Below, one piece after another: positions 16,796-54,400 of a stretch of DNA of 64,000 nucleotides (position 1 is its first letter; the number at the start of each line of letters is the position of its first letter). The DNA comes from Flavobacteriales bacterium UBA1494 (lineage in GTDB: Bacteria > Bacteroidota > Bacteroidia > Flavobacteriales_E > Vicingaceae): assembly GCA_905182175.1 (NCBI GenBank), contig CAJJAT010000003.1, positions 62,001 to 126,000 of the forward strand, read 5' to 3'. Position numbers and translations under genes: made by a program. Under the pieces are notes generated by a model that had not been told where the DNA came from, ran no database searches, and saw nothing but the letters and a program-made list of their open reading frames with translations.

Positions 16796-17548
16796 ATGAG
16801 AAAGAAAATTGTAGCAGGAAACTGGAAGATGAATAATAACTTTCAGGAAGGAATCGACTTATCAAATGATTTGGTTTCGAAATATAAAAAATCGGATAAG
16901 AATAAAGAGCTAATTATCCTTCCTCCATTTATTCACTTAACTTCTGTTGCTGAAAAGTTAAGTAATTCAAAGATTCACTTAGGTGCTCAGAATTGTCATA
17001 CAGAAGGGAGAGGTGCTTATACAGGAGAGGTTTCTGCGAGGATGTTAGATTCTGTTGGTGTACGTTATTGCTTGGTAGGTCATTCGGAACGCCGAGCTAA
17101 TTTTTTTGAAGACAATAACGAGCTTAAGAAAAAGTGTAAACAATTAGTATCAAATTATATAAATCCAATTTTTTGCTGTGGTGAATTGTTGAGAGATAGA
17201 AAATATGGCAGCTATTTTGAAGTTATTGAAGACCAATTAGAGGTTCTTTGGTCGCTTTCTAAAACAGATTTTGAAAAAGTTATTGTTGCTTATGAACCAG
17301 TTTGGGCTATTGGAACAGGAGAAACAGCATCGGCTGATCAAGCACAAGAGATTCATAAATTTATTCGAAGAAAAATTTCAGATGAGTTTGGTTCAGAAAC
17401 TGCTGAAAATACTTCGATTTTGTATGGAGGAAGTTGTAAACCGAGCAATGCAGTTGAGTTATTCTTTAAGCCAGATGTTGACGGAGGATTGATCGGAGGT
17501 GCAGCACTAAATACGGTTGATTTTTTAGCCATTTATAACGCTTTGTAG
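16796..17548 (+). CDS. tpiA: Triosephosphate isomerase
   Basis: 250 residues, standard length. It interconverts dihydroxyacetone phosphate and glyceraldehyde 3-phosphate. Catalytic residues are visible: Lys11 in GNWKMN, His96 in VGHSERR and Glu167 in AYEPVWAIGTG, plus the phosphate-binding YGGS and GGLIGGA loops near the C-terminus. It lies ten bases after the permease gene and two bases before prmA, inside a long plus-strand run. Confidence 0.97.
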   Translation: MRKKIVAGNWKMNNNFQEGIDLSNDLVSKYKKSDKNKELIILPPFIHLTSVAEKLSNSKIHLGAQNCHTEGRGAYTGEVSARMLDSVGVRYCLVGHSERRANFFEDNNELKKKCKQLVSNYINPIFCCGELLRDRKYGSYFEVIEDQLEVLWSLSKTDFEKVIVAYEPVWAIGTGETASADQAQEIHKFIRRKISDEFGSETAENTSILYGGSCKPSNAVELFFKPDVDGGLIGGAALNTVDFLAIYNAL

Positions 17549-17550
17549 AC

Positions 17551-18396
17551 ATGAATTATATAGAAGTTACCATTAAGTTAAAACCTTTTCGACCCTTTAA
17601 TGAAATTGTTGTTGCTCAGCTAAGCGGTTTGCCTTTTGACAGTTTTACAGAAGATGAGGACGAGGAATTGGTGAAAGCGTATATTTTAGAAGGAGACTAT
17701 GTTCAGACAGATGTGGAGAATGTTTTGAGTCCATTTGAAGATCTTGCTAAAATTAAGTTTACTGCTTCGAAAATTGAGAAAGTAAATTGGAATCAGAAAT
17801 GGGAAGAGAATTTCGATGCTGTGGAAGTTGGCGAATTCTGCTGTGTTAGAGCGCCATTTCATGTTGAGAGATCAAACTTTACCCACGAAATTATTATTGA
17901 ACCAAAAATGTCGTTCGGTACAGGTCATCATCAAACAACACAAATGATGATTGAACACATGGAAAGTATTGACTTTACGAGTAAGACTGTACTTGATATG
18001 GGCAGTGGTACTGGAATATTAGCCATACTTGCGAAGCAAATGGGAGCAAAAGAAGTAGTTGGTATTGATATTGAAAAATGGGCATATGAAAACATGATTG
18101 AGAATTTCGATCGCAACAACGTTGATATAACTGCCTGCAATGGAGGAGAGGAACTAATTGCTAAAATCGGAAAGCCTTACGATGTTATCATAGCCAATAT
18201 TAATAAAAATATATTGTTAGGTCAGTTACCTACCTATAATTCACACTTAAATACCGGAGCTTTGTTACTTCTAAGTGGATTTTATGAAACTGATGTGGAT
18301 GATCTAATTCAAGCAAAAGAATTAGATGGTTATGCACTAATTCATCAAATCACGAAAGAAACATGGTGTGCATTAAAACTTCGAAAAGGTGATTAA
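17551..18396 (+). CDS. prmA: Ribosomal protein L11 methyltransferase
   Basis: 281 residues. A class I methyltransferase that methylates ribosomal protein L11. The N-terminal substrate-recognition domain (about 1-95) ends in NWNQKWEENFDAV, a conserved PrmA stretch. The SAM-binding domain has MSFGTGHHQTT, LDMGSGTGILAI and the catalytic-side motif IIANINKNI. Length and motif order are normal. It starts two bases after the tpiA stop, and its own stop overlaps the following small membrane peptide by eight bases. Confidence 0.95.
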   Translation: MNYIEVTIKLKPFRPFNEIVVAQLSGLPFDSFTEDEDEELVKAYILEGDYVQTDVENVLSPFEDLAKIKFTASKIEKVNWNQKWEENFDAVEVGEFCCVRAPFHVERSNFTHEIIIEPKMSFGTGHHQTTQMMIEHMESIDFTSKTVLDMGSGTGILAILAKQMGAKEVVGIDIEKWAYENMIENFDRNNVDITACNGGEELIAKIGKPYDVIIANINKNILLGQLPTYNSHLNTGALLLLSGFYETDVDDLIQAKELDGYALIHQITKETWCALKLRKGD

Positions 18397-18544
18397 TATA
18401 AAAAAAGATGGACTGCGTTCAAGGCTTGTCTTATTTCTAGATGATTTGAGAGGCCTAACTTGGAAAAAGTGGTTAGCTGTTATTTTTGTGGTTACCCTTG
18501 TTATCGTAAAGGCTTCCAAGTTAATTTCTACGGGTTCTTTTTAA
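18389..18544 (+). CDS. Small single-span membrane protein (51 residues)
   Basis: A GTG-started frame of 51 codons overlapping the last eight bases of prmA. The translation starts VINIKKDGLRSRLVLFLDD, then a basic segment (LTWKKW), one hydrophobic helix (LAVIFVVTLVIV) and a short tail KASKLISTGSF. This is the pattern of a real single-pass inner-membrane peptide with a basic cytoplasmic N-terminus. No ATG is available in this frame. Family and function are not recognised. The composition, the overlap with prmA and the absence of any other gene in the 300-base gap support it, but it remains a prediction. Confidence 0.5.
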   Translation: MINIKKDGLRSRLVLFLDDLRGLTWKKWLAVIFVVTLVIVKASKLISTGSF

Positions 18545-18696: not shown

Positions 18697-21600
18697 ATGA
18701 AAAGGATGTTAAACATTATTGTTAAAAGCTTACTAATTGTTTTATTTGTAGTTGTTCCTGTAGATTTAAAGGCACAAACACCGGACAAATTCACAAGTGA
18801 TTCTACCGTTTTTTTTGACGAGATGGAAAATTATCTTTCTAATTCTCGGAAAGAGGGGAAATTCTTTATGAAGCAATTTGAAGCTGTATGGTTTGGAGGA
18901 TACTTTTCTGATAAACAACGAGAAGGGGTTTATGCTGTGGCAAATACCATGTTGAAAAAGAAGCTTAGAGCATTTCCGGATTTTAGAAATTACTTGTACA
19001 CGGTAGGGAGTTTTGTCACGGATAGCGCTCAAACAGAGGAAAGTTTTGAAGCTTGGCAGGGAATTTTATTTGAGTTATTACAAAAAAGGAAGTCAAGAAA
19101 TTTTACTCAGTTTTTAGATTTTTGTAACGGGGTTTTTCGCGAAAATGTGATGTATTCTTCTGCAAGTGCAATTTGGTCTGCTGACAATAGCAATTATCTT
19201 TTTGCTTATGATAGTCTCCCAAAAATTGTATTTAATGAATTGGATTTAATCTGTTTTGCCAAGCGAGATTCGATGATTATTTATAAAACAAAAGGAGTAT
19301 ATTACCCGACTACTCACACATGGGTAGGTTCGGAAGGCCGGGCTCTTTGGAAAAGAGCAGGATTTGAGGCCGACGACGTTTACGCTGAATTGAGTCATTA
19401 TAAGGTAAATTTTAAAGTATCAACTTACGAGGCTGATTCAGCTATATTCTACAATAAATTTTATTTTGATGCTCCTTTGCAAGGAAAAGTAACTGACAAA
19501 GTGTTGGCTAACATGACAATGGATCGTGCAACTTACCCTCGATTTGATTCGTACGATAAGCGAATACAAATACAGAATTTAGCACCTGGGGTGAACTTTG
19601 ATGGCGGAGTGTCCATGGTAGGGTCTAAATTGTTGGGAAAAGGAGATGAACAGCAAGATGCAATTGTCGAGTTTATGAGGAATGACACACTTTTTATGCG
19701 GGCTTTTTCCGAAAATTTCTCGATTCGAAAAGATAGAATTACTTCAACCAAAGCAGGCGTTAGCATATTCCTTAACCAAGACTCTATTTATCACCCTGGG
19801 TTAGATTTTAAATACTTATTTGAAAATAAGACAGTAACTTTATATAAAAATGATGAGGGAGTAGCAAGAACACCGTATTACAACAGTTTTCATGATATTG
19901 ATATGGAATTCGAGGTGCTAACTTGGAAAACAGATGAACCAATACTGGAGTTTACAAAGTTATTAGGCAGTACAAAAACGGACGCACGATTTACTTCTGC
20001 CAACTATTTTAAACGAGAATTATATGAGAAACTCGGAGGGTTAGAAAGAAATCCGCTAGATATAATATATAATCAAGCAAAAGCGGATGATTCAAATGTT
20101 ATATCATTTATGCAACTTGCCCGAAATTTAAATTTCGATCCTAGAGATGTCAAAAACATGGTGATTCGTTATTCCATTTGGGGGTTGTTAGGTTTTGATT
20201 TTGAGTCTGATATAGTTATTGTAAAGGATAAATTATTTCAATACGTATTAGCAAGTCGTAAAAAAGTAGATTACGATGTAATTAATGTAAATTCTAGTGT
20301 TCAAGATGGGCGGAATGCTAAATTAAATTTGTTAAACTATGATTTAACTATTTACGGTGTGTCAGGAATTGTACTAAGTGATTCTCAAAAGGTTGTAGTC
20401 CAGCCTTCAGGCGGAGTTATTAAAATGAAGCGAAATAGGTACTTTGAATTTGCCGGTTTGGTTAAAGCCGGTCGGTTTGATTTTTATGGCAAAGAGTTTT
20501 CATTCGATTATGAGAACTTTAAAATTAATTTAACGAATGTAGATTCTCTTCGATTAAAAGCAAACAGTACCGAGCTAGACATATATGGCAACCCGATTGT
20601 TAAACCTGTTAAAACTGTAATTGAAGGTGTAAATGGCGATTTGTTAATCGATAATTTTGGCAACAAGTCAGGTAATGAAGATTTTCCAGGGTACCCAATA
20701 TTTAATTCAAAAGATAAGTCCTATGTATATTACGATAAGGGAAATGCTCAAGGTGGGGTATATAAAAGAGGAAATTTCTATTTTGAATTGGAGCCTTTTA
20801 CTATTGATAGTTTAAAAAGTTTTAGTAACGATCAGTTAACATTTGCGGGTACATTTGCTTCTTCGGGAATCTTTCCTGAATTCGCGGAGCAGCTTGCCTT
20901 GCAAGAAGACTTTTCTCTAGGATTTATTCGTCCAACGCCGCCGGAAGGGATGGCTATGTTTGGAAATAAGGGAACTTTTTACAATGACATAAAATTGAGT
21001 AACCAAGGTCTAAGAGGAGATGGTAAACTGGAATACATTACTTCTACCACGTATTCAGAAAACTTTATCTTTTATCCGGATTCTATGCGAACGAATGCCT
21101 CTGAATATTTTGTAGAAAAGCAAAGAAGAGGAGTGCTTTATCCACCTGCAAAAGCGCAAAAAACTGACATGCGTTGGTTACCAAAGAAAGATGTTATGTA
21201 CGCTACCACTAAAGAATCGCCCATGGTTTTGTATGACGAGCGTGATAACTTTGACGGAACGACTGCTTATGGGCCAAAAGAAATGAAGGGGGATGGAGTG
21301 TATCATTTTGAAAGGGCTGATTTATTTTCGAATCAAATGGTATTCAAATACAATACCTTTGACGCAGATACATCTGACTTTAAATTGAAAAATGAAACAG
21401 ATGAAACGGACGAAACAGTTGAGTTTTCATTGCAAACTAAAAACGTACAAGCCCATGTAGATTATACAAAACGATTTGCAAGCTTTAAAACAAATGGTAA
21501 GAAAGAGCCTATTTTCTTCCCTGTAAACAAGTATTTGTGCTACATGGACGAATTTAAGTGGTATATGGATAATGGAATAATTGAGCTTACTAGTTCAAGT

Positions 21601-23163
21601 ACGTCCGAAGTTGCCGCTGATGTTACATTAGAAGGGTCTAAATTTATATCGACACATTCAAATCAGGACAGTTTATTTTTCTTCTCTCCTGTTGCTCAGT
21701 ACGACTCAAGAAGACACAAGATATCGGCAGAGAGAGTGGCATATATAAATTCTGCTGATGCAAGAATTTATCCAGATAGTGGAGGGGTAATTATTCGAAA
21801 AGATGCAGCAATGGATTCGTTAAAACAATCTAGAATTATAACAAATAGTATAACAGAGTTTCATGAGGTTTATGGGGCAAACACCCAGATTAAAGGGAGA
21901 AAAGATTATGTTTCTAGTGGTAATGTAGATTATATTGATCAAACTGGGCTGATTCAAACTATTTACCTCTATAATATTGCGGTTGACGAAGCTGGACAAA
22001 CTTTGGGAAAAGGAAAAATATCAGATACCGCAAGTTTTGTGCTGAGTCCTTATTTTGCATTTGATGGAGGAGTTAAATTATTTGGAAGTAAGCAATTCTT
22101 AGTTTTCGATGGTGTTGCTAAAATTAATCATGAGTGTGCAAAACTTGAAAAAAGATGGATTGATTTTGAGTCTGAGATTAATCCGAATGAAATTTATATT
22201 CCCATTGATACTAATTTAAGGGACTCCAGTGGTGCATTTATAGCAACAGGAATTAATTTGAATATAGATTCAGTATTCCTGTACCCGGGGTTTTTAACTA
22301 AGCGATCAAATTACTCGGATATTCAAGTGATAGAATCTCAAGGGTTCTTGCACTATGATGAAGGAAGTAAAGAATACCGAATAGGTCAGAAGGATAAGAT
22401 TGCAGAGCAAAGTTTAGCTGGGAATTACTTAAGTTTAAGTACGGAAGCGTGTAAAGTGTACGCTGAGGGAAAACTTGATATTGGCGCTCGTACAGGGAAT
22501 TTAAAGTTCGATGGGGCGGGTAACATTAATTATACATTGGAAGATGACGGCGTTGTAGTTGACATGATGATGATTGTTGATTTTTTCTTCAACGATAATT
22601 TAATGAAGAAAATGGCAGAAGACATTAATGAAAATATTAACCTAAATCCTGTTGATTTCAGTAAGTCAACTTATACCAAAGGGTTAAAAGAAATTGTTGG
22701 CACAGAAAGGGCTGACGAGATTGTTTCACAATTAAGCTTGAATGGTAAAATAAAACGATTACCCGAAGAGCTTAATAAGAGGTTAGTTTTTAACGATATT
22801 AAATTCAAATGGAATGAAGATAATAACACTTTTAAATCTTTCGGTCCAATGGGACTTAGTAATTCAGGCAAGTTCGAGATCAACAAATATGTAAACGGAG
22901 GAGTAACAATTACTAAAAAACGAAGTGGCGATATTGTGAAGATGTACCTTGAGGTAGATTCAAATACGTGGTATTATTTTTCTTATAGAAGAAATTTAAT
23001 GAAAGTAATTTCAAGTAATGAAGATTATAACACACAGATAAAAGAAATGAAGCGAGACGATAGAAAGTACGATACGAAAAGAGGAGAACAATCATTTACG
23101 TTTATGTTTGGCGTTGAGAAGGAAGTGAAAGATTTTAAGAGAGACTTCGATAGCGATTTGTAG
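18697..23163 (+). CDS. Very large exported protein of unknown function (1488 residues)
   Basis: 1488 residues from the ATG at 18697 (a TTG two codons earlier is possible). The N-terminus is a signal peptide (NIIVKSLLIVLFVVVPVDLKAQ). A helical segment follows (about 20-150), and the rest appears rich in short beta strands with repeated patterns such as GKLEYITS, FYPDSM, GGVIIRKDA, GNVDYIDQ and GGVKLFGS. These recall OstA/LptA-like or beta-helical strand repeats. No domain could be assigned with certainty. A minor GAAAC-type 9-base repeat encodes ETDETDETV near 21394-21420. It stands 106 bases upstream of the PorE-like gene, so the two may be functionally linked at the cell envelope. Few cysteines and no sorting domain were seen. 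Confidence 0.85.
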   Translation: MKRMLNIIVKSLLIVLFVVVPVDLKAQTPDKFTSDSTVFFDEMENYLSNSRKEGKFFMKQFEAVWFGGYFSDKQREGVYAVANTMLKKKLRAFPDFRNYLYTVGSFVTDSAQTEESFEAWQGILFELLQKRKSRNFTQFLDFCNGVFRENVMYSSASAIWSADNSNYLFAYDSLPKIVFNELDLICFAKRDSMIIYKTKGVYYPTTHTWVGSEGRALWKRAGFEADDVYAELSHYKVNFKVSTYEADSAIFYNKFYFDAPLQGKVTDKVLANMTMDRATYPRFDSYDKRIQIQNLAPGVNFDGGVSMVGSKLLGKGDEQQDAIVEFMRNDTLFMRAFSENFSIRKDRITSTKAGVSIFLNQDSIYHPGLDFKYLFENKTVTLYKNDEGVARTPYYNSFHDIDMEFEVLTWKTDEPILEFTKLLGSTKTDARFTSANYFKRELYEKLGGLERNPLDIIYNQAKADDSNVISFMQLARNLNFDPRDVKNMVIRYSIWGLLGFDFESDIVIVKDKLFQYVLASRKKVDYDVINVNSSVQDGRNAKLNLLNYDLTIYGVSGIVLSDSQKVVVQPSGGVIKMKRNRYFEFAGLVKAGRFDFYGKEFSFDYENFKINLTNVDSLRLKANSTELDIYGNPIVKPVKTVIEGVNGDLLIDNFGNKSGNEDFPGYPIFNSKDKSYVYYDKGNAQGGVYKRGNFYFELEPFTIDSLKSFSNDQLTFAGTFASSGIFPEFAEQLALQEDFSLGFIRPTPPEGMAMFGNKGTFYNDIKLSNQGLRGDGKLEYITSTTYSENFIFYPDSMRTNASEYFVEKQRRGVLYPPAKAQKTDMRWLPKKDVMYATTKESPMVLYDERDNFDGTTAYGPKEMKGDGVYHFERADLFSNQMVFKYNTFDADTSDFKLKNETDETDETVEFSLQTKNVQAHVDYTKRFASFKTNGKKEPIFFPVNKYLCYMDEFKWYMDNGIIELTSSSTSEVAADVTLEGSKFISTHSNQDSLFFFSPVAQYDSRRHKISAERVAYINSADARIYPDSGGVIIRKDAAMDSLKQSRIITNSITEFHEVYGANTQIKGRKDYVSSGNVDYIDQTGLIQTIYLYNIAVDEAGQTLGKGKISDTASFVLSPYFAFDGGVKLFGSKQFLVFDGVAKINHECAKLEKRWIDFESEINPNEIYIPIDTNLRDSSGAFIATGINLNIDSVFLYPGFLTKRSNYSDIQVIESQGFLHYDEGSKEYRIGQKDKIAEQSLAGNYLSLSTEACKVYAEGKLDIGARTGNLKFDGAGNINYTLEDDGVVVDMMMIVDFFFNDNLMKKMAEDINENINLNPVDFSKSTYTKGLKEIVGTERADEIVSQLSLNGKIKRLPEELNKRLVFNDIKFKWNEDNNTFKSFGPMGLSNSGKFEINKYVNGGVTITKKRSGDIVKMYLEVDSNTWYYFSYRRNLMKVISSNEDYNTQIKEMKRDDRKYDTKRGEQSFTFMFGVEKEVKDFKRDFDSDL

Positions 23164-23269
23164 CTTTCCCTTGTTCACAAAATGGTGTTAATCATTTGAT
23201 AAATAAATGCGATTAATATTGCTGTAACGTACAATCTTTGTTAATTAACGAACTTTGAAAAAAAAATTG

Positions 23270-26200
23270 ATGAAAAAGAATTTATTCTTTAGCCTCACTA
23301 TAGTACTTGTTTTAGCCATAAGTGTTGGAGCACAAGGGGGAACAGGTTCTGAAGATGAGCTAAAAACAAAAGCAAATGAGCTATTTGTAGCTCAAAATTT
23401 TAAAGATGCAAAACTCATGTATGCTCAATTGTTGAGTTTATATCCTAAAGATCCTACGTATAATTATCGATTTGGTGCTTGCGTTCTTCAAACAGAAGCC
23501 AATAAATCCAAACCGATGAAGTATTTATATTTTGCTGCGTCAAAAGCGAATGTCGACCCATTGGCTTACTTTTATTTAGGAAAAGCGCACCATTTAAATT
23601 ATGAATTTGCAAAAGCTGTAAAACAATACAATAAATTCAAGAATAAGGCAACTAATGATGAAAAAGTAAAGTACAATGTTAACCGGCAAATAGAAATGTG
23701 TAAAAATGGTAACAGTTTACTCGCTAAAATAAATGAAGTACAGGTAATTGAAAGGCAAAGTATTGCTGTAAAAGATTTTTATAGAATTTATGATGAGAAA
23801 GCTATTGGGGGCAAAATTATAGTTCAACCTGAAGAGTTTAGAAGTAGGTACGATAAAAAGATAGATGCAAAGTCCATTATTTTTTTAGCCAATGATGCAA
23901 AAGAAGTGTACTATTCCTCTTATGGAAAGAAGGGGGATAATGGGAAAGACATTTACAAAGCAATCAAATTAGGCAATGGTGAGTGGAGTGAGGGAGTTAG
24001 TCTTGGGAATTCGATAAATACTTCTTTTGACGAGGACTATGCTTACATGAAACCTGACGGAAAGACGTTGTATTTTGCTTCAAAAGGACACTCGAGCATG
24101 GGTGGATATGATATTTTTCGGAGTGTTTTAGATAATGCAACTAGCCAATGGACTGAACCTGAAAATTTAGACTTTGCAATTAATTCCTCAGATGATGATT
24201 TTATGTTTATCACTGATCAAGCAGAAATTACTGCTTATTTTGCTTCAAACAGATCAAATGAGTTTGGAGAAGTCACAGTCTATAAAGTGCTGACGGATAG
24301 AATCCCCGCGGAATTGTCAATTATTTCAGGAAGTTTTGTTGCTGAAAGTAACCCTGGTCAAAAAAGAGCTAAAATTACTGTAATTGATAAAGAAACTCAA
24401 CAAACAATAGGAATATTCGAAACAGACGACGCCGGAAATTATGCTATCGAAATTGCTAAAAACGGTGGAGAGTATCAGTTTAACATTGAAACAAATGAAA
24501 CAGACCCGATCCATACAGGGGTTGTTATTATTCCTAGCCAAGATGAGTTTGAAGTTTTAGGACAGGAATTAAGGTTAGTGGGTTCTGGAAATGAGCAACA
24601 ATTGGTAATAAAAAATATATTTGACGGCACTGCAGTTAATTCAATTGCCGCAGGTGTTGGACCTTCAATTTCTTCAGAGTTAATTATAAAGAAGGCCAAC
24701 TTAGAGGTGAATTACAATTCTAATGATTTGGAAGCTTTGGAACGTAAACAAGACAAGTTCGTAACAAATCAGAAGGAAGATGAGCAGAAAAATAAAAAGG
24801 TAGAAGTTAAAAGTAACGAAGAAATTATTGGTAATAAAGTAGTTGAGTCGGAGAGAATAGAGAGAGTTGCGGAACCTATAGGAGAAGAAACTGAATCTCA
24901 GGAGAAGCCAGCAGGTGTATCTGTTGAAGCCATTGAAAATGAATTAGAGAGTATAAAATTACATAGGAATCAATTGATAGATAGCAAACAAAATGTAATA
25001 TCTGCTCAATATGCTGCCGCTTTGAATTTAAATACTGCTGCATCTGATTTATTTGAAGAAGCAAATAAATTAGAAGATTCAGGTGCAGAGAGTGTAGCCG
25101 TCGATCTGAAACGTAAACAGGCTGGAGAGAAAGCTTTAAAAGCGTCTGTTGCCGTTGATTTAGCGTTGGATTTAGAGGAGTCTATTAATTTAGATTTGAG
25201 TTTATTAGGTTATGTAGAAGTTGCAGAAGCTAACATTAGAGGAGCGCTTGGAGAAAATGACATCCAAACAGCTTCTAGTTTAATGAAAGGAATAACTGTT
25301 CAAAACGAAAAAGCAATGAAAGTGAGTGAAATATTTTCTTCTGCATTGAATAATATTGAAGAAAATAATAATTTATCAGACAAGAAAATTCAAGATTTTT
25401 CAGCAAAATCTCAATCTTTTACAGACGAAAAGAATTCGTTAAAGAGTCAGTTGACTGATTTGAATTTACAGGTTGAAAAAGCAGGAGGAAAGAAAAAAGA
25501 GGAGTTAGAAAAGAGCATTGAGTCGACTAAACTTGACCTAGAGGATTTAGAATATCAATCAGTTATTTTGGATAAATCTCTTTTTGGGGCTCAATTATCA
25601 AAAAAGTCTTCCGTTTTGGAGAAAGAAGAGGTAATGGCTGCGTCCAATCGATCGAATTCAGATTTAGGGGAAATATCCGCTTTGTCGGAGGAAAATAAAA
25701 ATATGCTTTTGGAGCAGCTGAAAAAGTACAGAGAAGAGAATATGTTAGCTTTTTCGGTGGAGAATAAATTGTACCAAAACATAGATAACATTGAAACAAT
25801 TGAGCAGCCGGAAGAAGTTGCTATGTCCGCTGAAGGGGACCTCGATTCAAATTTTGATTCAAAAAATATGACGAGTGATAACTCAGAATCAGAAGAGAAT
25901 ACTGAAAAAATTGTGAATGTTGACAATACATCTACTGACAATACATCTACTGATGGCACATACGCAGATAATACACTTACTAATAATGTAACTACCAACT
26001 CCATAAATGCTCAATACTCGAGCGAGATTGAAGGTGCAGATATTATGAAAGATGTAGATCTTAAATTAGCTAAAAAGATTTCTCTTTACAATCAATGGTT
26101 AAGTGCTTTGATAGCTAAGAAAGAATCAATTAATGTTGCGTACGAAGAAGAGATTGATCTAAATGAAAGGTCTATTATGAAGACAGAATTAGACTTATTG

Positions 26201-28873
26201 ACTAATAAAATTCTAAAAAATGAAAGGTATAAGAGAAATTTAGAATCTGACTTAGCTAAAAGAGCCTCAGGAAAATTTTCAGCGGATGCGTCACCAATTT
26301 CAAATTCAAATGTAATAACTGAAACCTCAGTTGTAAATACTGAGTTTACCAGCTTAAAGTTTGACCAGCAATTACAGCCATCAACTCTTCAAGCTACGGT
26401 TCAGTTGATTGAAGCTAAAAAGGCTCTTTATGAAGCTGGTCAACTTTCGAAGCAACAGAAAATGGCACAAGAATCTGCTTACACATTACCTACTGCCGCA
26501 GAAAGAACGCAAGCATTTAGCAAGGCAAATGAATTAAAGAAAGAATCTGAAGTCAAACAATTGGAGGCTGCGGGAAAATTTGCAGAATTTAATTTGAAGG
26601 AATATCAATCCAACAAGGTGAAAATTCAAGAAGCAAATCAATTGGATGCTCGATTCACCACAGATGGAAGGGATATTGCGGTTTTATTGGAAGAAGAAGC
26701 AAGTAATTTCTTTACGGATGCAGCGATTCTTCGTTCAGAGATCAATGAAAGCGATAGACTATCTCAAAAGGAAGTAAACCTTCAAAAAGCCTATGACTAC
26801 GAATTATTAGCGATAAAAAAGCAGCAAGAAGCATTGAAAAAGTTAGGCTTGGTTGTTAGCGAGGTCGTTAGTAATAAAATTGGAAAAACTGCTTCAAAGC
26901 TTAGAAAGCCATTCATTCAAATTATTGAAAACAGTGATGTGTTGGCTGTAGTTGAGGCGCCAATAGCTTTAGAAAAAGCCGAGGCCAAGCGTGCTGAAGT
27001 AATTTCCATTGAAAGTGAAATTGAATTTGCCACAGCTGCGGCGAATGAAATAGAGAATGGAGAAGCAAAAGATAGCGCTTTGGCAGTTGTTGAAGAGTTA
27101 CAAGTAGAAAGAGACCAAGCGCTAAAAGCAGCAGCACTTTATTACGAGAGAGAGCGGCAAATAAAAGCTGGACTTGTAGGTGTAGCTTCAGAGGAAAAAT
27201 CACCAAAAGAAATGGTACTGCCTGCATCTAAGCCCGCTTTTGTTGTAGTTCTTGATCCTGTTGAAATAGATTCGGATAGAGAACAACTCGTTTTAGGTTC
27301 TCAAAACTTTAAAGAATTTGCTAACAATAGGCAAGCACTTGTGGCTCAGAGTAAATTAGCTCAAGTTGCGTATGAAGATGCAATACGTATAGCGGAGGAA
27401 AATCAACGGTTGAACAAACAAGCGATTATTGAAACTAACATGGCCAGAGCAGTTAATGGAGAAGGTGAAAAGCAGCGTCTTATTAAATCGGCTCTTGTCA
27501 TTGAGAGTAAAATAAAAACCAATGAAGAAAGAATTAATAGCCTGAATAAAACAATAAAAGTGAAAAACTTCTTACTGAAAAGTTTGGCTGAAAAAGATGC
27601 TGTCTTTTTAACTAGCTTAAGTGAGGCGGAGAAAAAGGAGTTTATTGTTCTAAGTAAATATTATGAGCCTGAAATTAAGCCTGCGGGAGAGGTAGTTGAA
27701 ATTCCAAATACGTTGGGAAGCGTTGAAAAAAGAAATGACCAAATTGAAAGTACTGAAACATCACAGTCGGCAGAAGAATTCGAAACATTAGAAATATTAG
27801 AAACGGAAACGAATACATTAAATCTGCCTGAAGATGTTGCAATAGTTGAAGGTGAAGATGTTATTTTACAAGAGCCTATCGAGGTTAATGATGCAGATGC
27901 CCCCTTAGTCGTTGCTAATTCAGAGCAAGATAAATTTATCGAAACTAACGAACAAGAGGAAGTTGAGGAATCAATTGAAACTGCAGAACCTATAATTCCT
28001 TTAGTTGTGGCTATAAAACTGCCGGTGATTAACGATTTGCCTGTTGAGCTTAAAAACATTGACCTTGTACCAAGAGAGGTGAAGCAAGCCATTTTTGTGA
28101 CATTAAATAGAGATGAATCGGCTTACAATGAAAATAGACCAATTCCCACTAAGACAAGTTTACCGGAAGGAGTGGTGTACAAAGTACAAATAGGTGCTTT
28201 TAGAAATAAAATTCCTGCAAACACTTTTAAAGGGTTTGCACCTTTAATGGCTGAAGTTGCCGGTTCCGGAATTACCCGATATACTGCAGGATTATTTGCC
28301 AATGAAAAAACGGCAACTGCTGCAAGAAATGAAATTAGAAACATTGGTTACCCTGACGCTTTTGTTGTGGCTTTCTTAAATGGAGAACGAATTAGTAACA
28401 GTGCCGCTAGGAATGAAACAGGAGAAGCGGCATCTTCTAATTCTGCAACTGCTAAATTTCAGAATGTTTCAACTAAAACTGGAACAAGTGCCTCGAATTC
28501 TGGTGTTGTCCCTTCAAGTGCAGAAGTCACTCAAGTGCAAGGAGGCAGCAAAGAGGCTTTACCTGTTGATTTCAATTCTGATAAAGTAGAAGATGTGGTT
28601 AACGCTAAAACAATTGAAGGATTATATTATACCATTCAAATTGGAGTATTCTCAACTCCTGTGAAAAAAGGAGTTTTTTACTATGAAGAATTAAATGTAG
28701 TTCAACTATCAAGTGGGTTGTATCGTTACAATGCGGGAATATTTGAAAGTGTATTAGCTGCGGCTGATTTAAAGAATACGATTTCAATTACAATTAAAGA
28801 TGCTTTTGTAACGGCCTACTATAATGGCGAGAGAGTTTCACTAACTGAAGCTTCTAAATTGAAAAATCAATAG
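23270..28873 (+). CDS. PorE-like envelope protein: TPR, PD40 propeller, CRD-like, coiled coil, two SPOR-like domains
   Basis: 1867 residues from the ATG at 23270 (a TTG at 23255 is an alternative). A signal peptide ending near SVGAQ is followed by TPR-like helices (about 27-150), a WD40/PD40 propeller region (about 200-340: TLYFASKGHSSMGGYDIFRS, AYFASNRSNEFGEV), and a carboxypeptidase-regulatory-like module (about 350-415). A long Glu/Lys/Ala-rich coiled coil runs from about 550 to 1460, then an acidic linker. Two SPOR-like domains close the protein (about 1633-1707, VYKVQIGAFRN...; and 1782-1865, YYTIQIGVFST...). T9SS PorE has TPR, propeller, CRD and OmpA-like domains; here tandem SPOR-like domains stand where PorE has OmpA. 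A role tying the T9SS or gliding apparatus to peptidoglycan is inferred. clpS starts three bases after the stop. Confidence 0.85.
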   Translation: MKKNLFFSLTIVLVLAISVGAQGGTGSEDELKTKANELFVAQNFKDAKLMYAQLLSLYPKDPTYNYRFGACVLQTEANKSKPMKYLYFAASKANVDPLAYFYLGKAHHLNYEFAKAVKQYNKFKNKATNDEKVKYNVNRQIEMCKNGNSLLAKINEVQVIERQSIAVKDFYRIYDEKAIGGKIIVQPEEFRSRYDKKIDAKSIIFLANDAKEVYYSSYGKKGDNGKDIYKAIKLGNGEWSEGVSLGNSINTSFDEDYAYMKPDGKTLYFASKGHSSMGGYDIFRSVLDNATSQWTEPENLDFAINSSDDDFMFITDQAEITAYFASNRSNEFGEVTVYKVLTDRIPAELSIISGSFVAESNPGQKRAKITVIDKETQQTIGIFETDDAGNYAIEIAKNGGEYQFNIETNETDPIHTGVVIIPSQDEFEVLGQELRLVGSGNEQQLVIKNIFDGTAVNSIAAGVGPSISSELIIKKANLEVNYNSNDLEALERKQDKFVTNQKEDEQKNKKVEVKSNEEIIGNKVVESERIERVAEPIGEETESQEKPAGVSVEAIENELESIKLHRNQLIDSKQNVISAQYAAALNLNTAASDLFEEANKLEDSGAESVAVDLKRKQAGEKALKASVAVDLALDLEESINLDLSLLGYVEVAEANIRGALGENDIQTASSLMKGITVQNEKAMKVSEIFSSALNNIEENNNLSDKKIQDFSAKSQSFTDEKNSLKSQLTDLNLQVEKAGGKKKEELEKSIESTKLDLEDLEYQSVILDKSLFGAQLSKKSSVLEKEEVMAASNRSNSDLGEISALSEENKNMLLEQLKKYREENMLAFSVENKLYQNIDNIETIEQPEEVAMSAEGDLDSNFDSKNMTSDNSESEENTEKIVNVDNTSTDNTSTDGTYADNTLTNNVTTNSINAQYSSEIEGADIMKDVDLKLAKKISLYNQWLSALIAKKESINVAYEEEIDLNERSIMKTELDLLTNKILKNERYKRNLESDLAKRASGKFSADASPISNSNVITETSVVNTEFTSLKFDQQLQPSTLQATVQLIEAKKALYEAGQLSKQQKMAQESAYTLPTAAERTQAFSKANELKKESEVKQLEAAGKFAEFNLKEYQSNKVKIQEANQLDARFTTDGRDIAVLLEEEASNFFTDAAILRSEINESDRLSQKEVNLQKAYDYELLAIKKQQEALKKLGLVVSEVVSNKIGKTASKLRKPFIQIIENSDVLAVVEAPIALEKAEAKRAEVISIESEIEFATAAANEIENGEAKDSALAVVEELQVERDQALKAAALYYERERQIKAGLVGVASEEKSPKEMVLPASKPAFVVVLDPVEIDSDREQLVLGSQNFKEFANNRQALVAQSKLAQVAYEDAIRIAEENQRLNKQAIIETNMARAVNGEGEKQRLIKSALVIESKIKTNEERINSLNKTIKVKNFLLKSLAEKDAVFLTSLSEAEKKEFIVLSKYYEPEIKPAGEVVEIPNTLGSVEKRNDQIESTETSQSAEEFETLEILETETNTLNLPEDVAIVEGEDVILQEPIEVNDADAPLVVANSEQDKFIETNEQEEVEESIETAEPIIPLVVAIKLPVINDLPVELKNIDLVPREVKQAIFVTLNRDESAYNENRPIPTKTSLPEGVVYKVQIGAFRNKIPANTFKGFAPLMAEVAGSGITRYTAGLFANEKTATAARNEIRNIGYPDAFVVAFLNGERISNSAARNETGEAASSNSATAKFQNVSTKTGTSASNSGVVPSSAEVTQVQGGSKEALPVDFNSDKVEDVVNAKTIEGLYYTIQIGVFSTPVKKGVFYYEELNVVQLSSGLYRYNAGIFESVLAAADLKNTISITIKDAFVTAYYNGERVSLTEASKLKNQ
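25922..25996 (+). repeat. 15-bp in-frame tandem repeat, about five units
   Basis: Two identical copies of GACAATACATCTACT (25922-25936, 25937-25951) are followed by three diverged copies (25952-25966, 25967-25981, 25982-25996). They encode DNTST, DNTST, DGTYA, DNTLT and NNVTT, a Thr/Asn/Ser-rich linker within the coiled-coil part of the PorE-like protein. Because the unit is five codons, copy-number change would keep the frame. Confidence 0.85.
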
Positions 28874-28876
28874 ATT

Positions 28877-29146
28877 ATGTCCACTCAAGAATTAGAAGAA
28901 GTAGAATTAAAGGAGCAGGTTGTTCAAGAACGCGAATTAATATTGCACAACGATGATTTTAACACATTTGAGCATGTTATTAATTGCTTGGTATCCTATT
29001 GCGAGCAAAAGGTTATTCAAGCAGAACAGTGCGCTTATATTGTACATCATAACGGAAAGTGTAGCGTAAAAAAGGGACCAAAATCAGCATTAGAGCCGAT
29101 TTATATGGCACTTCAATTGCAAAATTTGAAAGTAGAAATTAAATAG
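28877..29146 (+). CDS. clpS: ClpS adaptor of the Clp protease
   Basis: 89 residues. ClpS delivers N-degron substrates to ClpAP-type proteases in the cytoplasm. The core LILHNDDFNTFEHVINCL (about 22-39) contains the conserved NDD and the hydrophobic-pocket region, and AEQCAYIVHHNGKCSV matches the second half, where the family usually has an A-x-x-H-x-G-pattern. The C-terminal LQLQNLKVEI strand closes the fold. It sits three bases after the PorE-like gene and one base before the M48 peptidase gene, so all three are probably on one mRNA. Confidence 0.92.
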   Translation: MSTQELEEVELKEQVVQERELILHNDDFNTFEHVINCLVSYCEQKVIQAEQCAYIVHHNGKCSVKKGPKSALEPIYMALQLQNLKVEIK

Positions 29147-29147
29147 C

Positions 29148-29945
29148 ATGAAAAAAGGATTATTAGCGTTTGTTGTAATTACATTATTTGCACAGTGTGC
29201 GACAGTGCCAATTACTGGAAGGAGGCAAATGAAATTTGTAAATTCTAAAAAATTACAGACTATCAGTTTTACTCAGTATTCTGATGTTAAGACTACTGTG
29301 AAATTATTGCCAAATACAGACCAAAGAACAGTACTTGTTAAAAATGTTGGTGAAAAAATATCTGTTGCTGTTAATAGGTATTTGACAAACAATGGCTACA
29401 AAGACCGTTTAAAGGAATTCGAATGGGAGTTCAACTTGGCTGATGAAAACACGGTGAATGCTTGGTGTATGCCCGGTGGGAAAGTAATGTTTTACACAGG
29501 AATATTGCCAATTTGTGAAGGTGAAGACGGGATTGCTGTTGTTATGGGACATGAAATTGCTCATGCTATTGCAAGGCACGGTAACGAACGTATGAGTCAG
29601 GGATTACTAGCGCAAGGCTTAGGGGTTGCAGGTCAGATTGGAACGAGTGGAGTTTCGCCAGATTTTCAGGCTGTTTTCAACCAATCTTTTGGAATTGGAT
29701 CTCAACTTGGGTTATTAAAGTTTTCTCGAAATAACGAATCAGAAGCGGATAAATTGGGATTGGTCTTTATGACAATGGCAGGTTACAATCCTGCGACAGC
29801 AGTTGAGTTTTGGAAAAGAATGGCAGCAAATAAAGGCAACGGTCAGAAACCTCCTGAGTTTATGAGTACTCATCCAAGTGACGATAGAAGAATTGCAGAT
29901 ATACTAGAGTACCTTCCTGAAGCTAGAAACTGGGCCAATAAGTAA
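29148..29945 (+). CDS. M48-family metallopeptidase lipoprotein
   Basis: 265 residues. The lipoprotein signal MKKGLLAFVVITLFAQC places lipidated Cys17 at the mature N-terminus. The zinc motif HEIAH is at 135-139 with ARHGNER after it, and the third-ligand motif ESEAD is at 197-201 in SRNNESEADKLGL, the LoiP/YcaL-like arrangement. It probably works in the periplasm on envelope protein quality control; the substrate is unknown. A conserved THPSDDRR motif lies near the C-terminus. It starts one base after the clpS stop and closes the plus-strand run. Confidence 0.93.
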   Translation: MKKGLLAFVVITLFAQCATVPITGRRQMKFVNSKKLQTISFTQYSDVKTTVKLLPNTDQRTVLVKNVGEKISVAVNRYLTNNGYKDRLKEFEWEFNLADENTVNAWCMPGGKVMFYTGILPICEGEDGIAVVMGHEIAHAIARHGNERMSQGLLAQGLGVAGQIGTSGVSPDFQAVFNQSFGIGSQLGLLKFSRNNESEADKLGLVFMTMAGYNPATAVEFWKRMAANKGNGQKPPEFMSTHPSDDRRIADILEYLPEARNWANK

Positions 29946-48069: not shown

Positions 48070-48475
48070 TTGTTAGAGTAAATTAAAAGTTATAAGAATT
48101 GGTCGAGAAATTACAATTTGATGACCATTAGTTCTCAGAATATTGCCCACTTTATAGAGGGACTGTTTTTTTGTAAAAGTAACCTTACTTAATAATATAT
48201 GGTAATTGAATTTCAGATTGCAGCTTGAATTGAGTTTAAGTTGTATCAAAATAGTTTTTATTGCTTCATACTGTTGCAAAATCAATTATTTTAAAACGCA
48301 TTTTTGGTAAATGCCGAATACTTAGATAACGAATAAACGAGTAACGAAGTGTTTTACATAAGATGACTATATCGTTATTATACTTTAATAGTAAGTTATA
48401 GTCTTAGTGAAATAGCAAAGGGGGGTTGCTAAAAACCGTTGAATAAATGCGGAAAAGTTTGAACGACAACTTTCG
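48070..48475. other. Non-coding stretch between divergent genes
   Basis: About 400 AT-rich bases separate the minus-strand membrane protein from the T9SS substrate gene. I see no convincing gene; a 70-codon minus-strand frame (48073-48285) has no protein-like character. An imperfect inverted repeat, GACTATA (48365-48371) with TATAGTC (48397-48403), lies about 90 bases upstream of the T9SS gene and could be a regulatory hairpin or operator. Promoters for both genes must lie here. Confidence 0.5.
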
Positions 48476-48483
48476 TAAATTTG
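48458..48483 (+). promoter_or_regulatory. Bacteroidota promoter immediately before the T9SS substrate gene
   Basis: TTTG at 48458-48461 and TAAATTTG at 48476-48483 (exact to the -7 consensus) are separated by 14 bases, a little short. The ATG at 48489 follows after five bases, so the mRNA would be leaderless or nearly so. The box overlaps the coding frame if the upstream ATG at 48447 were used, which argues for 48489. Confidence 0.55.
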
Positions 48484-48488
48484 TAGAT

Positions 48489-51400
48489 ATGCGAATTCTA
48501 AAAAGTGTTTTTATACTTTGTCTCCATCTTGTTACTTTAATATCTTTTGGTCAAAGTAACTCATTGGTTTTTCCTAAAAATGGTCAAACCTTATCTTCTA
48601 ACTTTACGATAGATTGGAACTCTAACGAGCAATCAGATCAGTATAATTTAAGAATTGCTACAGATCCTAATTTTAATACAATTGTTGCTGATTATTACCA
48701 AGCCCCTAGTTCAAAGTTATTTCAAATAAATATAAATGATATTCTATATTGGAAGGTTTATTATTTAAATAGCTCAATTGTAATAGACTCCAGTGATATT
48801 TCTATGTTTTCAGTCTTTGCTCCTTCTGACCTCGATAGTTTAAATTTATGGGTTAAGGCTGATAGTAATGTGGTTATCTCAAATGGAACTATCTCCCAAT
48901 GGGGTGATTTAAGTGACTCACTAAGTGATTTATTGCAAAGTTCGGTGACGCGGCAGCCAGTTATTGTAAACAACGGTATTAATAATCTTCCAGTAATCGA
49001 TTTTGATGCGGTTAACGACCGTTTACAAACGACTGTAGATCTTTCGAAAAAAAACTTTTCCATTAGTTCGGTTTATAGCTCTAAAGTTCAGAGTTCAGGG
49101 ATTCGAATGGTGAATGGGACGACGAATTGGATTTATGGACCATTCTCTGGTGTGCATAGAGTATTTAATGGAGGTTTTGTTGGAGGCAAGGCAGTTGTAG
49201 CTAATAAATTTGTTATACACACGGCAGTGTCTCGAAATGACACCCTAAATAACTATGTGAATAGCATCTATTACGGACAAAGAAAGAATTCTTATTCACC
49301 CGGTATTTTAACAGTTGGGGATAATCCTATCAATGGCCAAGTGGCTGAAATGGTTATTGTCAATGGTGAGTTACTTGAGGCGAATAGAGTGGTACTGGAT
49401 AATTATTTGATGGATAAGTATGCTCCACCAATTAATCTGGGTAAGGATATGGATATATGCAGTCTTCCAATTCAGCTAAGTGCCTATAAAGACAGCTACT
49501 CAGGTTATATTTGGAGTAACGGTTCCACAGATTCTATTATTTCTATTAGTAGTTCTGGAAAATATTATGTGACTGTTACGGATATCTTTGATAGGGTTTC
49601 TGTAGACTCTGTTATTATTCAACAAGATACAGTCAATTTTGTGGTGGATTTAGGTTCTGACACTGTGATTTGTCAAGGTCAGAATATCAGACTTGAGGCA
49701 GGAAATCATCTCTACAGCTATCAATGGAATGTTAATTCGAATGAATCAACTATTACAATCGACACTACTTTTAATTACAAAGTAACCGTGGCAGATTGCA
49801 AAGGAAACATCTCCATAGATTCAGTACTAGTAACAGTCAGTGATCCTGCATTCAACTTGGGTGCTGATACAAGTATCTGCTTTAGTGATTCATTAATAGT
49901 TAACCCAAGCCGTATGTTCAGTGGGGCAAGTTATTTATGGTCAACAGGATCGATAGCAAGTTCAATATCTGTTTTTGTTAGGAATAACTACGCACTTACC
50001 GTTACAGATCAATTTACGTGTGTTTTCTTTGATACCTTATTTGTAAATTCTGACTCTACAATTTATAATATAAATATTGGGAATGATACGTCTCTGTGTA
50101 ATGGAAATCAGGTTGGATTAATTCCTCCCTTAGCAAATATTGATGGCTATTTATGGTCTACAAATTCTGTAGATTCCTTTATTACTGTTAATACAACACA
50201 AAAATATTATGTGACAGTAAGTAAAAGAGGTTGCATGAATACTGATAGCATCAGTATCACTATAAAAGGTGACGCACCAATATCCGATTTCAATTTTACA
50301 GGTCAGTGTAATCAGGGTACAACTCTATTCGTGGATAATTCAACGGACCCCCAAGGAATTAATATAAAGACTTACAATTGGAGTTTTGGAGATAGTAGTT
50401 TTGCTCCATTAAAAGACCCTGCTCATTATTATACTTTGCCTGGAATATATGACGTGACGTTAAATGTTACCAATGATTCTAACTGCAGCGGAACTTCTAA
50501 AAAAAACGTAGAGATATATTCAAAGCCAACATCAAGTTTTACCAACCAGTTGTCTTGTGAAATAGATTCCACTTTTTTCATGAATACTAGTGTTGTTCTT
50601 ACTGATACTATTTCAAACTATCATTGGAATTTTGGCGTTGGTGGAATATTATCCGACACTTCCAGTCTAGTAAACGCTTCCTTTATTTTCCCTCAAGACT
50701 CAACTCATTTTGTGCGACTTGAAGTTGAAACTATTAATGGATGCAAGGATACGCTGTCGAAAGTAATTTTTGTAAACTCCAAACCCGAGGTAAGTTTTAG
50801 CTTTTTAGGAACTATAATTGGAGACTCCACTAAATTCACTAATACGTCTACTATTGGTAAAGGGGTTATTTCAACTTACACTTGGAATTTAGGCAACGGG
50901 TTAACGACAATGGATATAAATCCTAAAAATCTGTACGCAAACAAAGGGGTATATTTTATTCAATTAGATGCTTTGTCTGATTCGGGTTGTTTCGAAATTT
51001 TTACTGATTCAATTAAAATAATTGACCCACCGCCAACTTTTAAAACAATTTTTCCAAAGAACAACCAAAGTCTTTCCGCAGATGTGGATTTTGTATGGAA
51101 CACAACAGATTCAGCAAACAATTATATTCTAGAATTAGCGCAAGACTCTGCCTTTACCATCGTGATTATGTCCCAAAATGTCATTGGTCAGCAACTACTT
51201 GTTAGTAATACGTATCCATTTGGTAAATACTATTGGAGGGTAAAAAGCTTACGGAATTCGGTAACTATAGATACTACAAATATTTCAGCGTTTCAATTCT
51301 TTAATCCATCAGCAATTGATAGTCTTAACTTATGGATAAAAGCAGATGAAGGTATTGTTGATGTAAATAACAAAATTCAATCATGGTTTGATTTGAGTGA

Positions 51401-54400
51401 CTCAAGTATTATTTTAACTCAATTAGATAGTAGTAAAAGACCTGTTATTCAAAATAATGCTTTGAATGGTTTTCCTGTAGTAAGTTTTGATAATGTGAAC
51501 GATCAATTGACAACACCTTTAAATATAGTTGGACGTGATTTTTTAATCTCTTCAGTCTATAACACTAAAGAACAAAATAGAGGCATATCTTTTATTCGCG
51601 GAGCATCTAATTGGATATTTGGCCCGTTTTCAGGATTTTATAGAGTTTTTAATGGCGGATTTTTATTAGGGAAACCTGTAGAACCATTTAAGTATGTGCT
51701 ACAAACCGCAGCAAGTGTTGATGACACAACTTCTAATTACGTGAACAGCCAATTATTTGGGTCCAGGAAAAACTCGTTTTCTCCTGGCTTATTGACTATA
51801 GGTGCAAATGCAATAAATGGGAATGTTGCAGAGATAATAATAGTGAACGGAAAATCGAGTGACGCAGAAAGAGAAAGTATAGATAATTATTTGTTGGATA
51901 AATATGCTCCTCCTGTAAATTTAGGTGCAGATATTAAGGTTTGCTCTTTTCCGGACTCCATCAAATTAAGTATGGATTATGTTGAATCTTTTTTGTGGAG
52001 TAATGGGGATACAGCTTCTTCTTTAGTAGTCGTAAAAGAGGGTAAATATTTGGTTACTGTCACTGACATTTTTGACAGAGAGTCAATAGATTCTGTCTAT
52101 TTCATCTTGGACACTGCAAACTTTGAATTAAATTTTCCTTACCATGATACTACTATTTGCTTGGGTGATAAAATCGAAGTTACAGCCGGGCCTAATAACT
52201 ATTCTTACAATTGGAGCACAGGTGAAACTTCTTCTAAAATTGAGTTGAGTAGAAACTTTAACTATGTTGTAACAGTCACAGGATGCCGAGGTCAGGTTGC
52301 CATGGATAGTATTAATTTAATTATCAACAGTCCTTCATTTGACCTTGGGGCAGACACTACCATTTGTCATAATGAAATTATAGTAATTCAACCTGATTCT
52401 GTGTTCTCAAATGTAAATTATCTGTGGTCAACAGGCGAGTTGTCAAACTTAATATTAGCGGATACAACAAACTCTTATTACCTCACAATAGAAGATCAAT
52501 ATTCTTGTTCTTTTTCAGATACAATTAGAGTTACAATTGACTCTTCTATGTTTGACCTTACTTTGGGAGAGGATACAACGCTATGTGCAGGAAACGTAAT
52601 CAATTTGATTAATCCAAACACATCAATATCTTCCTATTTGTGGTCTACAGGAAGCATAAATTCGACTACGCTAGTTGATACAATGGGAGCCTACAAATTA
52701 CAAGTTAGCAACGGCAGATGCCAAGTCTCTGATACAATAAATATTCTAATTAAAGGAAAAGCTCCAGTCGCTGATTTTGAATTCCAAAATCTTTGTTTTG
52801 GTGATTCTCTATCTTTTGTAGATAGTTCAAAGGTTGCCGTGATAAATGATACAATAATTAATTGGAATTGGCATTTTGGAAATGGAGATAGTCAATTGCT
52901 TCAAAACCCTCGGTATCGTTATGTTCAAAGAGGGAGGTACAGTGTTTTATTAGAAATAGAGACCGATAAGGGATGCTTTGATTCCATTTCAAAACTTGTT
53001 GAAATTAATCCTTTACCAATAGCAAATTTTAACATTCAGCAGTCTATCGTTTGCGCGAAGTCTAGAGTTTTTCATCAAGATAGTAGCTTTATAAGTGGTG
53101 GATTAATTTCAGATTACGATTGGAATTTCGGTGATATCTTAAATAATCAGAATACATCAACTGCAAAAAATCCTTTTCACACATTCGATACAGTTGGAAA
53201 TTATAACATTTTGCTAAAGGTAACTTCTAACTTAGGTTGTTTTGATTCTGTTCAGAAAACCTTGTTTGTTAATTCATCCCCAATTCCAAATTACACAATT
53301 GATGGTTTTTGCATAGGGGATTCAATAACGCTTTCTGAACAGGTTGCATATGCAGGACTGGATTCAATAGAGTATTTCTGGACTATCCGTGCACTTGGAG
53401 GAAATTTTACAACGGATAGAAGAATGAATCCTAAATTAAAATTTATAAATTCAGGGGATTATGACATTGGTTTAAGAGCTAGAAATACAATTGGAATATT
53501 CGAATGGTGTGAAGCAAGCTTTAAAGATACAATTACGCTATTTGACAGTCCAATGGCTGACTTTGTTATTCCGGAGATATGCGAAAATGATTCATTTGAA
53601 ATTTCAAATTTCAGCATGCCAATAGCTGACATCTTAAAGTATAGATACATTTTAAATCAAACTGACACATTTAATATCTCTAATCCTAAAATAAGCGGAA
53701 AATTGCCTGGTAAATATCCTTTGGGTTTATTAATATCAGATGTGAATAGCTGTAAAGACTCCATTGTTAAACAATTGGAGATAAGTCAAAAGCCAAAGAT
53801 ACAGTTTACAATACTCAATAATAACTCAGGAGTCCCTTTTAATATTGATCTTCAGAATAGGTCATTAAGTTCTAGTTCTTATTTGTGGAAATTTGGAACA
53901 GGTGACACTTCGCCTGACGAGGAGCCGAACTACGTTTATAGCGATACAGGAACGTTTCAAATTACTCTAATAGGAAGTACTCCTTCTGGTTGTATAGATA
54001 GTACATCCGAAAATGCCTTTGCGCTTTCGAAGTTTATAGATGCAAGTCTAACAAAACTGTTTTTAACAGAGAATACGTTAGGCGATATTGAAGTTTCATT
54101 CCAAATTTTAAATTCTGGATTTAACACGATTAACAATTTATTAATGAGTGTTGATTTAAATAATGAATTTGAATTCAGAGAATTTTTTTCAACTAATTTA
54201 TATTCTGGAAGAAGTGATGGTTTTAGAATGGATGCAACATTTATTCCAAACGCAGGACGGAAAATAGACTATGTTTGTGTTAGGATTTTTGCGGTTAATG
54301 GAATATCTGACTCTATTGTACTGAATAATGAATTATGTGAATTAGGATTTAACGACGAACTGAGCATTACGTTATATCCAAATCCAGTTGAAGATTTACT

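Follow-up and report, generated by a model that had tools for sequence, protein, structure and literature searches.

PorE, a T9SS lipoprotein of Porphyromonas gingivalis (PG1058; NCBIfam NF052230), is predicted to have a five-bladed propeller, which was modelled on TolB (PMC5053529). Deletion of CHU_0125 (NF053607), an OmpA-like outer-membrane integrity protein, damages the outer membrane in C. hutchinsonii (PMC5891637). The two proteins have similar heads and reach the cell wall through an OmpA-type domain (PMC5053529, PMC5891637). SPOR proteins, the known examples of which take part in division or morphogenesis, include RlpA, in which Q270 and a basic patch touch denuded glycan; the FtsN counterpart of this patch is R285, and both FtsN and DamX have counterparts of the glycan-contacting residues of RlpA (PMC6895207).

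Here, we analyzed a window of 64,000 nucleotides from Flavobacteriales bacterium UBA1494 (contig CAJJAT010000003.1) and identified a gene whose product carries TPR, PD40 and CRD modules at one end and two SPOR domains at the other (Table 1). The gene is a single unbroken ORF, with a TTG at 23255 as an alternative start codon upstream. No transmembrane helix was found beyond the signal peptide, and a pattern search found no lipobox at the end of the signal peptide in any family member with an intact N terminus, the window protein included. The window protein is most likely a large, soluble periplasmic scaffold. It belongs to an unnamed family that is separate from PorE, and our searches of an open-access library yielded no publication that names the TPR-PD40-CRD-spacer-SPOR architecture.

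Table 1. Coordinates in the window of the SPOR-scaffold gene, its parts and the genes discussed in the text.
Feature	Coordinates	Strand	Evidence or remark
tpiA and prmA, first genes of the conserved block (upstream end)	16796..18396	+	Pfam; synteny
ORF of 51 aa that lies between prmA and the 1,490-aa gene and contains a single hydrophobic stretch	18389..18544		
Protein of ~1,488 aa (1,490-aa family) with signal peptide, candidate partner	18697..23163	+	AF2, VIA
SPOR-scaffold gene, TPR-PD40-CRD-spacer-SPOR-SPOR	23270..28873	+	1,867 aa, ATG start at 23270; ORF reading
Sec signal peptide without lipobox (MKKNLFFSLTIVLVLAISVGA, followed by Q)	23270..23332	+	Sequence
TPR domain, residues 28-150	23351..23719	+	AF2 pLDDT mostly ~95; VIA
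Three PD40 blades, residues ~198-345	23861..24304	+	Pfam, blade-to-blade profiles, AF2 strand triplets
CRD-like beta sandwich, residues ~346-450	24305..24619	+	AF2 strands; Pfam CarboxypepD_reg below cut-off
Helix-rich spacer, residues 456-1632 (~1,180 residues)	24635..28165	+	Composition, periodicity tests
SPOR1, motif YKVQIGAFRN...ITRYTAG...DAFVVAF	28166..28423	+	Pfam SPOR E=1.1e-8; family profile vs 1x60
SPOR2, motif YTIQIGVF...LYRYNAG...DAFVTAY	28613..28867	+	Family SPOR profiles, 77-84 bits
clpS-like gene, 89 aa, directly downstream	28877..29146	+	Sequence; homologue there in most family loci
M48 metalloprotease, probable lipoprotein (LFAQC), BepA-related	29148..29945	+	Pfam M48 E=4.5e-32
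2,054-aa protein with T9SS type A sorting domain	48447..54611		TIGR04183, E=2e-9

The sequence-only reading had proposed that the head follows the TPR-PD40-CRD order of PorE. AF2, VIA and Pfam show this order, but with three PD40 blades rather than the five predicted for PorE. The AF2 model of the head, which covers residues 1-510 and used a 34-sequence alignment (pLDDT 87.4, pTM 0.79), begins with helices (28-150), followed by units of three strands each (203-341) and then by a sandwich (350-450). TPR chains match the head model with VIA Z scores of 15-17 (best 17.1); Foldseek and VIA searches with this model resolved the TPR alone, with TPR matches filling the VIA list, and no propeller family is assigned or dismissed on their basis. 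Pfam PD40 is weak on the full-length protein, matches the isolated PD40 piece at E=8.5e-7 and is found in 33/34 relatives. In a profile self-comparison, the blades matched one another with probabilities of 97.7% and 87.2%, and residues 152-200, which precede them, gave no blade. The putative propeller is, as judged from these profiles, shorter than that predicted for PorE, with three recognisable blades. The isolated CRD piece matches Pfam CarboxypepD_reg at E=5e-4, below the cut-off, and the same family is matched in 12 of the 34 relatives.

Moreover, the same genome encodes a PorE-like protein (L074, on G000:C32) with TPR, PD40, CRD and OmpA domains, which scores 543 bits to T9SS_PorE (cut-off 600) and, second, 421 bits to CHU_0125. 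Thus, the organism appears to have PorE as well, and three further OmpA relatives occur in its genome. The PD40-CRD parts of the window protein and L074 are 33% identical over 204 aa, which supports homology of this part to PorE. Against NF052230 itself, the window protein scores 80.2 bits (cut-off 600), and no OmpA domain was matched in it by Pfam or NCBIfam; SPOR is present instead. Because L074 is PorE-like at 543 bits and the window protein reaches just 80, the window protein is not the stand-in for PorE. In a PD40-CRD tree, a single clade (100/99) unites the SPOR family with its short forms and with a group of ~980-aa proteins that lack SPOR; the OmpA-type relatives fall outside this clade, and long branches among them leave their inner order unsure. 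Two entries inside the SPOR clade (L084, L089) had been labelled PorE_OmpA by length; they were rejected as OmpA proteins, both being short ORFs that belong to family members and lie on broken contigs. With a PorE-like protein in the genome, a separate clade for the SPOR family and 126/239 SprA-positive genomes without it, the earlier suggestion that SPOR domains serve in place of OmpA as the T9SS anchor is not supported.

The best NCBIfam match of the window protein is CHU_0125, with 93 bits in the PD40-CRD region. This match, together with the outer-membrane damage that follows deletion of CHU_0125 (PMC5891637) and the modelling of the PorE propeller on TolB (PMC5053529), would suit a stabiliser of the CHU_0125 or Tol-Pal type, which couples outer membrane and wall mechanically and serves no specific export machine. 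We consider such a role rather doubtful. The window protein has no lipid anchor, so its attachment to the outer membrane would be indirect; both NCBIfam scores, for PorE and for CHU_0125, lie far below the cut-off; and the genome has four OmpA-type relatives, which could already fill this role.

Two C-terminal SPOR-like domains had been read from the sequence, and both are borne out, SPOR1 by Pfam and SPOR2 by family profiles. Pfam SPOR matches the full-length protein (E=7e-7) and, above the cut-off, its C-terminal 290 aa (E=1.7e-9), and SPOR1 scores 29.9-38.3 bits against a gathering score of 21 for PF05036. SPOR2 searched alone has no Pfam match, and the family profiles that score it include SPOR2 itself. 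When 44 family SPORs were combined into one profile, it matched the CwlC SPOR structure 1x60 (E=6e-5). The alignment of the C-terminal part, searched against PDB sequences, also gave 1x60 as the sole real matching stretch; designed pentatricopeptide proteins were rejected as sums of short repeat matches of ~6 bits. Gln8 and Arg38 are invariant in 44/44 aligned family SPORs and, matched by motif position alone, would correspond to Q270 and the basic patch of RlpA. Because the SPOR domains keep the residues used for binding denuded glycan, wall tethering through them is plausible.

Given the division or morphogenesis roles of the known SPOR proteins (PMC6895207), the window protein might act on septal wall synthesis, in the manner of FtsN, DamX or DedD, rather than as a tether. 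However, it has no transmembrane anchor other than the signal peptide, the conserved neighbours identified include no division gene, and a head of this kind is absent from the division SPOR proteins in the literature that we found. We regard a division role as improbable.

The stretch between head and SPOR domains had been read as about 900 residues of coiled coil. E, L, A and K abound in it, and an N/S/T-rich stretch at ~865-925 breaks it up. Heptad periodicity reached p<0.05 in just 4/55 windows of the spacer, which is near chance, and a continuous coiled coil is unsupported for the window protein. In view of this result and of the N/S/T-rich break, we term the spacer helix-rich, as its composition suggests, and not a proven coiled coil. 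When five relatives were tested for heptads, two scored higher (18/60 and 29/84 windows). No pair of spacer segments exceeded 19% probability in a search for internal repeats. Spacer length ranges from 751 to 1,830 aa (median 1,234) among 68 long members, the window protein included. The spacer is unlikely to be a required ruler of envelope length, given that the probable orthologues found at this locus measure just 750-940 aa.

A search for other proteins with this architecture revealed a large family spread across many Bacteroidota. Among its complete members above 1,600 aa, nearly all have 2-4 SPORs at the C terminus. Relatives did not turn up in contig searches until an alignment, rather than the single protein, served as query. 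Orthologues with 55-65% identity occur in 5/5 same-genus genomes searched, one of them split over two matches, and 59/60 relatives searched gave some match, a count that takes in PD40 paralogues. The one ORF above 1,600 aa, uncut by a contig end, without 2-4 SPORs (L122) stops 2 kb before clpS and may carry a frameshift. No SPOR could be detected in two shorter, complete-looking ORFs, L064 (1,579 aa) and L138 (1,391 aa), and L063 (1,183 aa) has a single weak one. Bacteroidales also have short forms, which measure 640-940 aa and carry 1-2 SPORs. Four of them (L139, L143, L147 and L148; 749-941 aa) have a clpS-like gene directly downstream, which suggests that they occupy the same locus as the long members. 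Perlabentimonas gracilis carries the short form. At the other extreme, an uncultured Bacteroidia encodes a 2,810-aa member that has four SPOR domains (L149:9947-18379). In the ~980-aa proteins L133 (L133:9320-12274), L137, L141, L146 and L152, the TPR-PD40 head is matched twice and SPOR is lacking.

The sequence-only reading had also seen T9SS cargo in the window, which the sorting domain of the 2,054-aa protein confirmed, and SprA is encoded in the same genome. It had further called for a check of co-occurrence with T9SS, and the outcome that would have told against its reading, members found mostly in T9SS-less genomes, was not seen: on the Bacteroidales side, 20/20 genomes with a member have SprA. 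SprA is, however, present in 239/247 genomes of the class (97%), and the co-occurrence says little because this baseline is nearly universal; positive evidence did not emerge. The family occurs in 114 of the 247 class genomes (a hand tally of matches of ~260 bits or more that includes a few lineages with doubtful SPORs), and 113 of these 114 also have SprA (p=0.07). In the order of one Bacteroidales-side member, matches at E<=1e-60, of which a part are partial paralogues with PD40, occur in 56/198 genomes and in none of the 10 that lack SprA. Pooled, 169/170 family-positive genomes have SprA (p=0.002, ignoring kinship and with samples that possibly overlap). This near-confinement to SprA-positive genomes and the PD40-CRD homology to PorE are what one would expect if the SPORs tied the type IX machine to peptidoglycan alongside the OmpA domain of PorE. 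Against this stand the near-saturated baseline, the PorE-like OmpA protein in the same genome, the 126/239 SprA-positive class genomes that lack the family, the separate clade, and the absence of T9SS genes among the conserved neighbours identified. Therefore, T9SS anchoring by the window protein is possible but unsupported, and we give it little credence.

The gene order tpiA-prmA-[1,490-aa gene]-(plsY)-SPOR-clpS-M48 is kept in many Flavobacteriales and some Bacteroidales. The 220-aa ORF that lies between the 1,490-aa and SPOR genes in other loci is probably PlsY, the gene directly downstream of the SPOR gene encodes what we take to be ClpS, and the M48 protein scores 104 bits against NCBIfam BepA (cut-off 570). 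No convincing Pfam or PDB sequence match was found for the 1,490-aa protein. AF2 modelling of its C-terminal 1,187 residues gives an almost entirely beta structure (pLDDT 86.8, pTM 0.46) with a winged-helix insert at model residues ~138-222. VIA aligned this model with LptC (Z 10.7, 132 residues, 2.6 A), LptA (Z 10.5, 112 residues, 2.8 A) and LptD (Z 11.3, 226 residues, 11.7 A), all above the Z of 8 under which, VIA warns, a match may mean little. The predicted fold thus resembles LptA, LptC and LptD, the low pTM leaving the overall shape open. The protein is a candidate envelope-biogenesis factor, although a shared fold proves no function.

The 1,490-aa gene occurs in 204/247 class genomes, specifically in 113/114 family-positive and 91/133 family-negative ones (p=5e-12, ignoring kinship), and the association persists within SprA-positive genomes (p=4e-10, ignoring kinship). 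The SPOR-scaffold family is therefore more tightly associated with the 1,490-aa protein than with T9SS as represented by SprA.

Taken together, we propose, with a probability of roughly 45%, that the window protein is a SPOR-tethered periplasmic scaffold whose partner is likelier to act in general envelope or outer-membrane assembly than in T9SS. The C-terminal SPOR pair would hold the scaffold on glycan strands stripped of stem peptides. Such strands are enriched at division sites, and the scaffold may be septal. By way of the long helix-rich spacer, the TPR-PD40-CRD head would hold the partner, for which the neighbouring Lpt-like 1,490-aa protein is the first candidate. We favour this reading because of the conserved SPOR Gln and Arg, the missing lipobox, the conserved gene block, the co-occurrence with the 1,490-aa protein, the Lpt-like fold of the latter and the BepA-related M48 protein. 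On the other side, a few lineages (L063, L064) keep head and spacer with SPOR weak or undetectable. In addition, 91/247 genomes have the 1,490-aa gene without the SPOR gene, so the function of the 1,490-aa protein does not need the scaffold. In such family-negative loci (L159, L162, L164, L167, L168, L170, L174), the 1,490-aa gene often stays, and plsY adjoins or lies near clpS. The conserved neighbourhood may also reflect a stable chromosome rather than a shared function, because tpiA, prmA, plsY and clpS are housekeeping genes.

If the scaffold reading is true, a widespread tandem-SPOR scaffold on the same head would constitute a second mode of wall tethering in Bacteroidota. A SPOR tether would recognise processed rather than intact peptidoglycan and could thus be position-specific. 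Its 1,490-aa neighbour is a large unnamed protein whose predicted Lpt-like fold makes it a candidate for envelope biogenesis. A bolder hypothesis, which we think unlikely to hold, is that Bacteroidota have an as yet undescribed envelope apparatus made up of the SPOR scaffold, the Lpt-like protein and the M48 lipoprotein, in which the tandem-SPOR tether would place a lipid-bridge-like protein at amidase-processed peptidoglycan. The SPOR scaffold and its 1,490-aa neighbour are both directly testable in cultured Bacteroidota.

Compared with known proteins, the window protein shares its PD40-CRD clade with the 980-aa double TPR-PD40 proteins of Bacteroidota, which form a tight group there and are likewise nameless in the family libraries searched. 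With FtsN, DamX, DedD, RlpA and CwlC it has in common SPOR domains with a conserved Gln and a basic residue, whereas its head, spacer and tandem SPOR arrangement differ, as does the lack of a transmembrane helix past the signal peptide. CHU_0125 resembles it in the PD40-CRD region, but the match is to be read against a cut-off of 620 bits, and the window protein departs from CHU_0125 as it does from PorE. With PorE it shares the order of TPR, PD40 and CRD, with homology in the CRD and the last three blades. It lacks the lipobox of a type II signal peptide, a poor discriminator, since the PorE-like protein of the same genome shows none either. In contrast to PorE, for which five blades are predicted, the window protein has three PD40 blades, a spacer of ~1,180 aa and two SPOR domains, and it lacks an OmpA domain.
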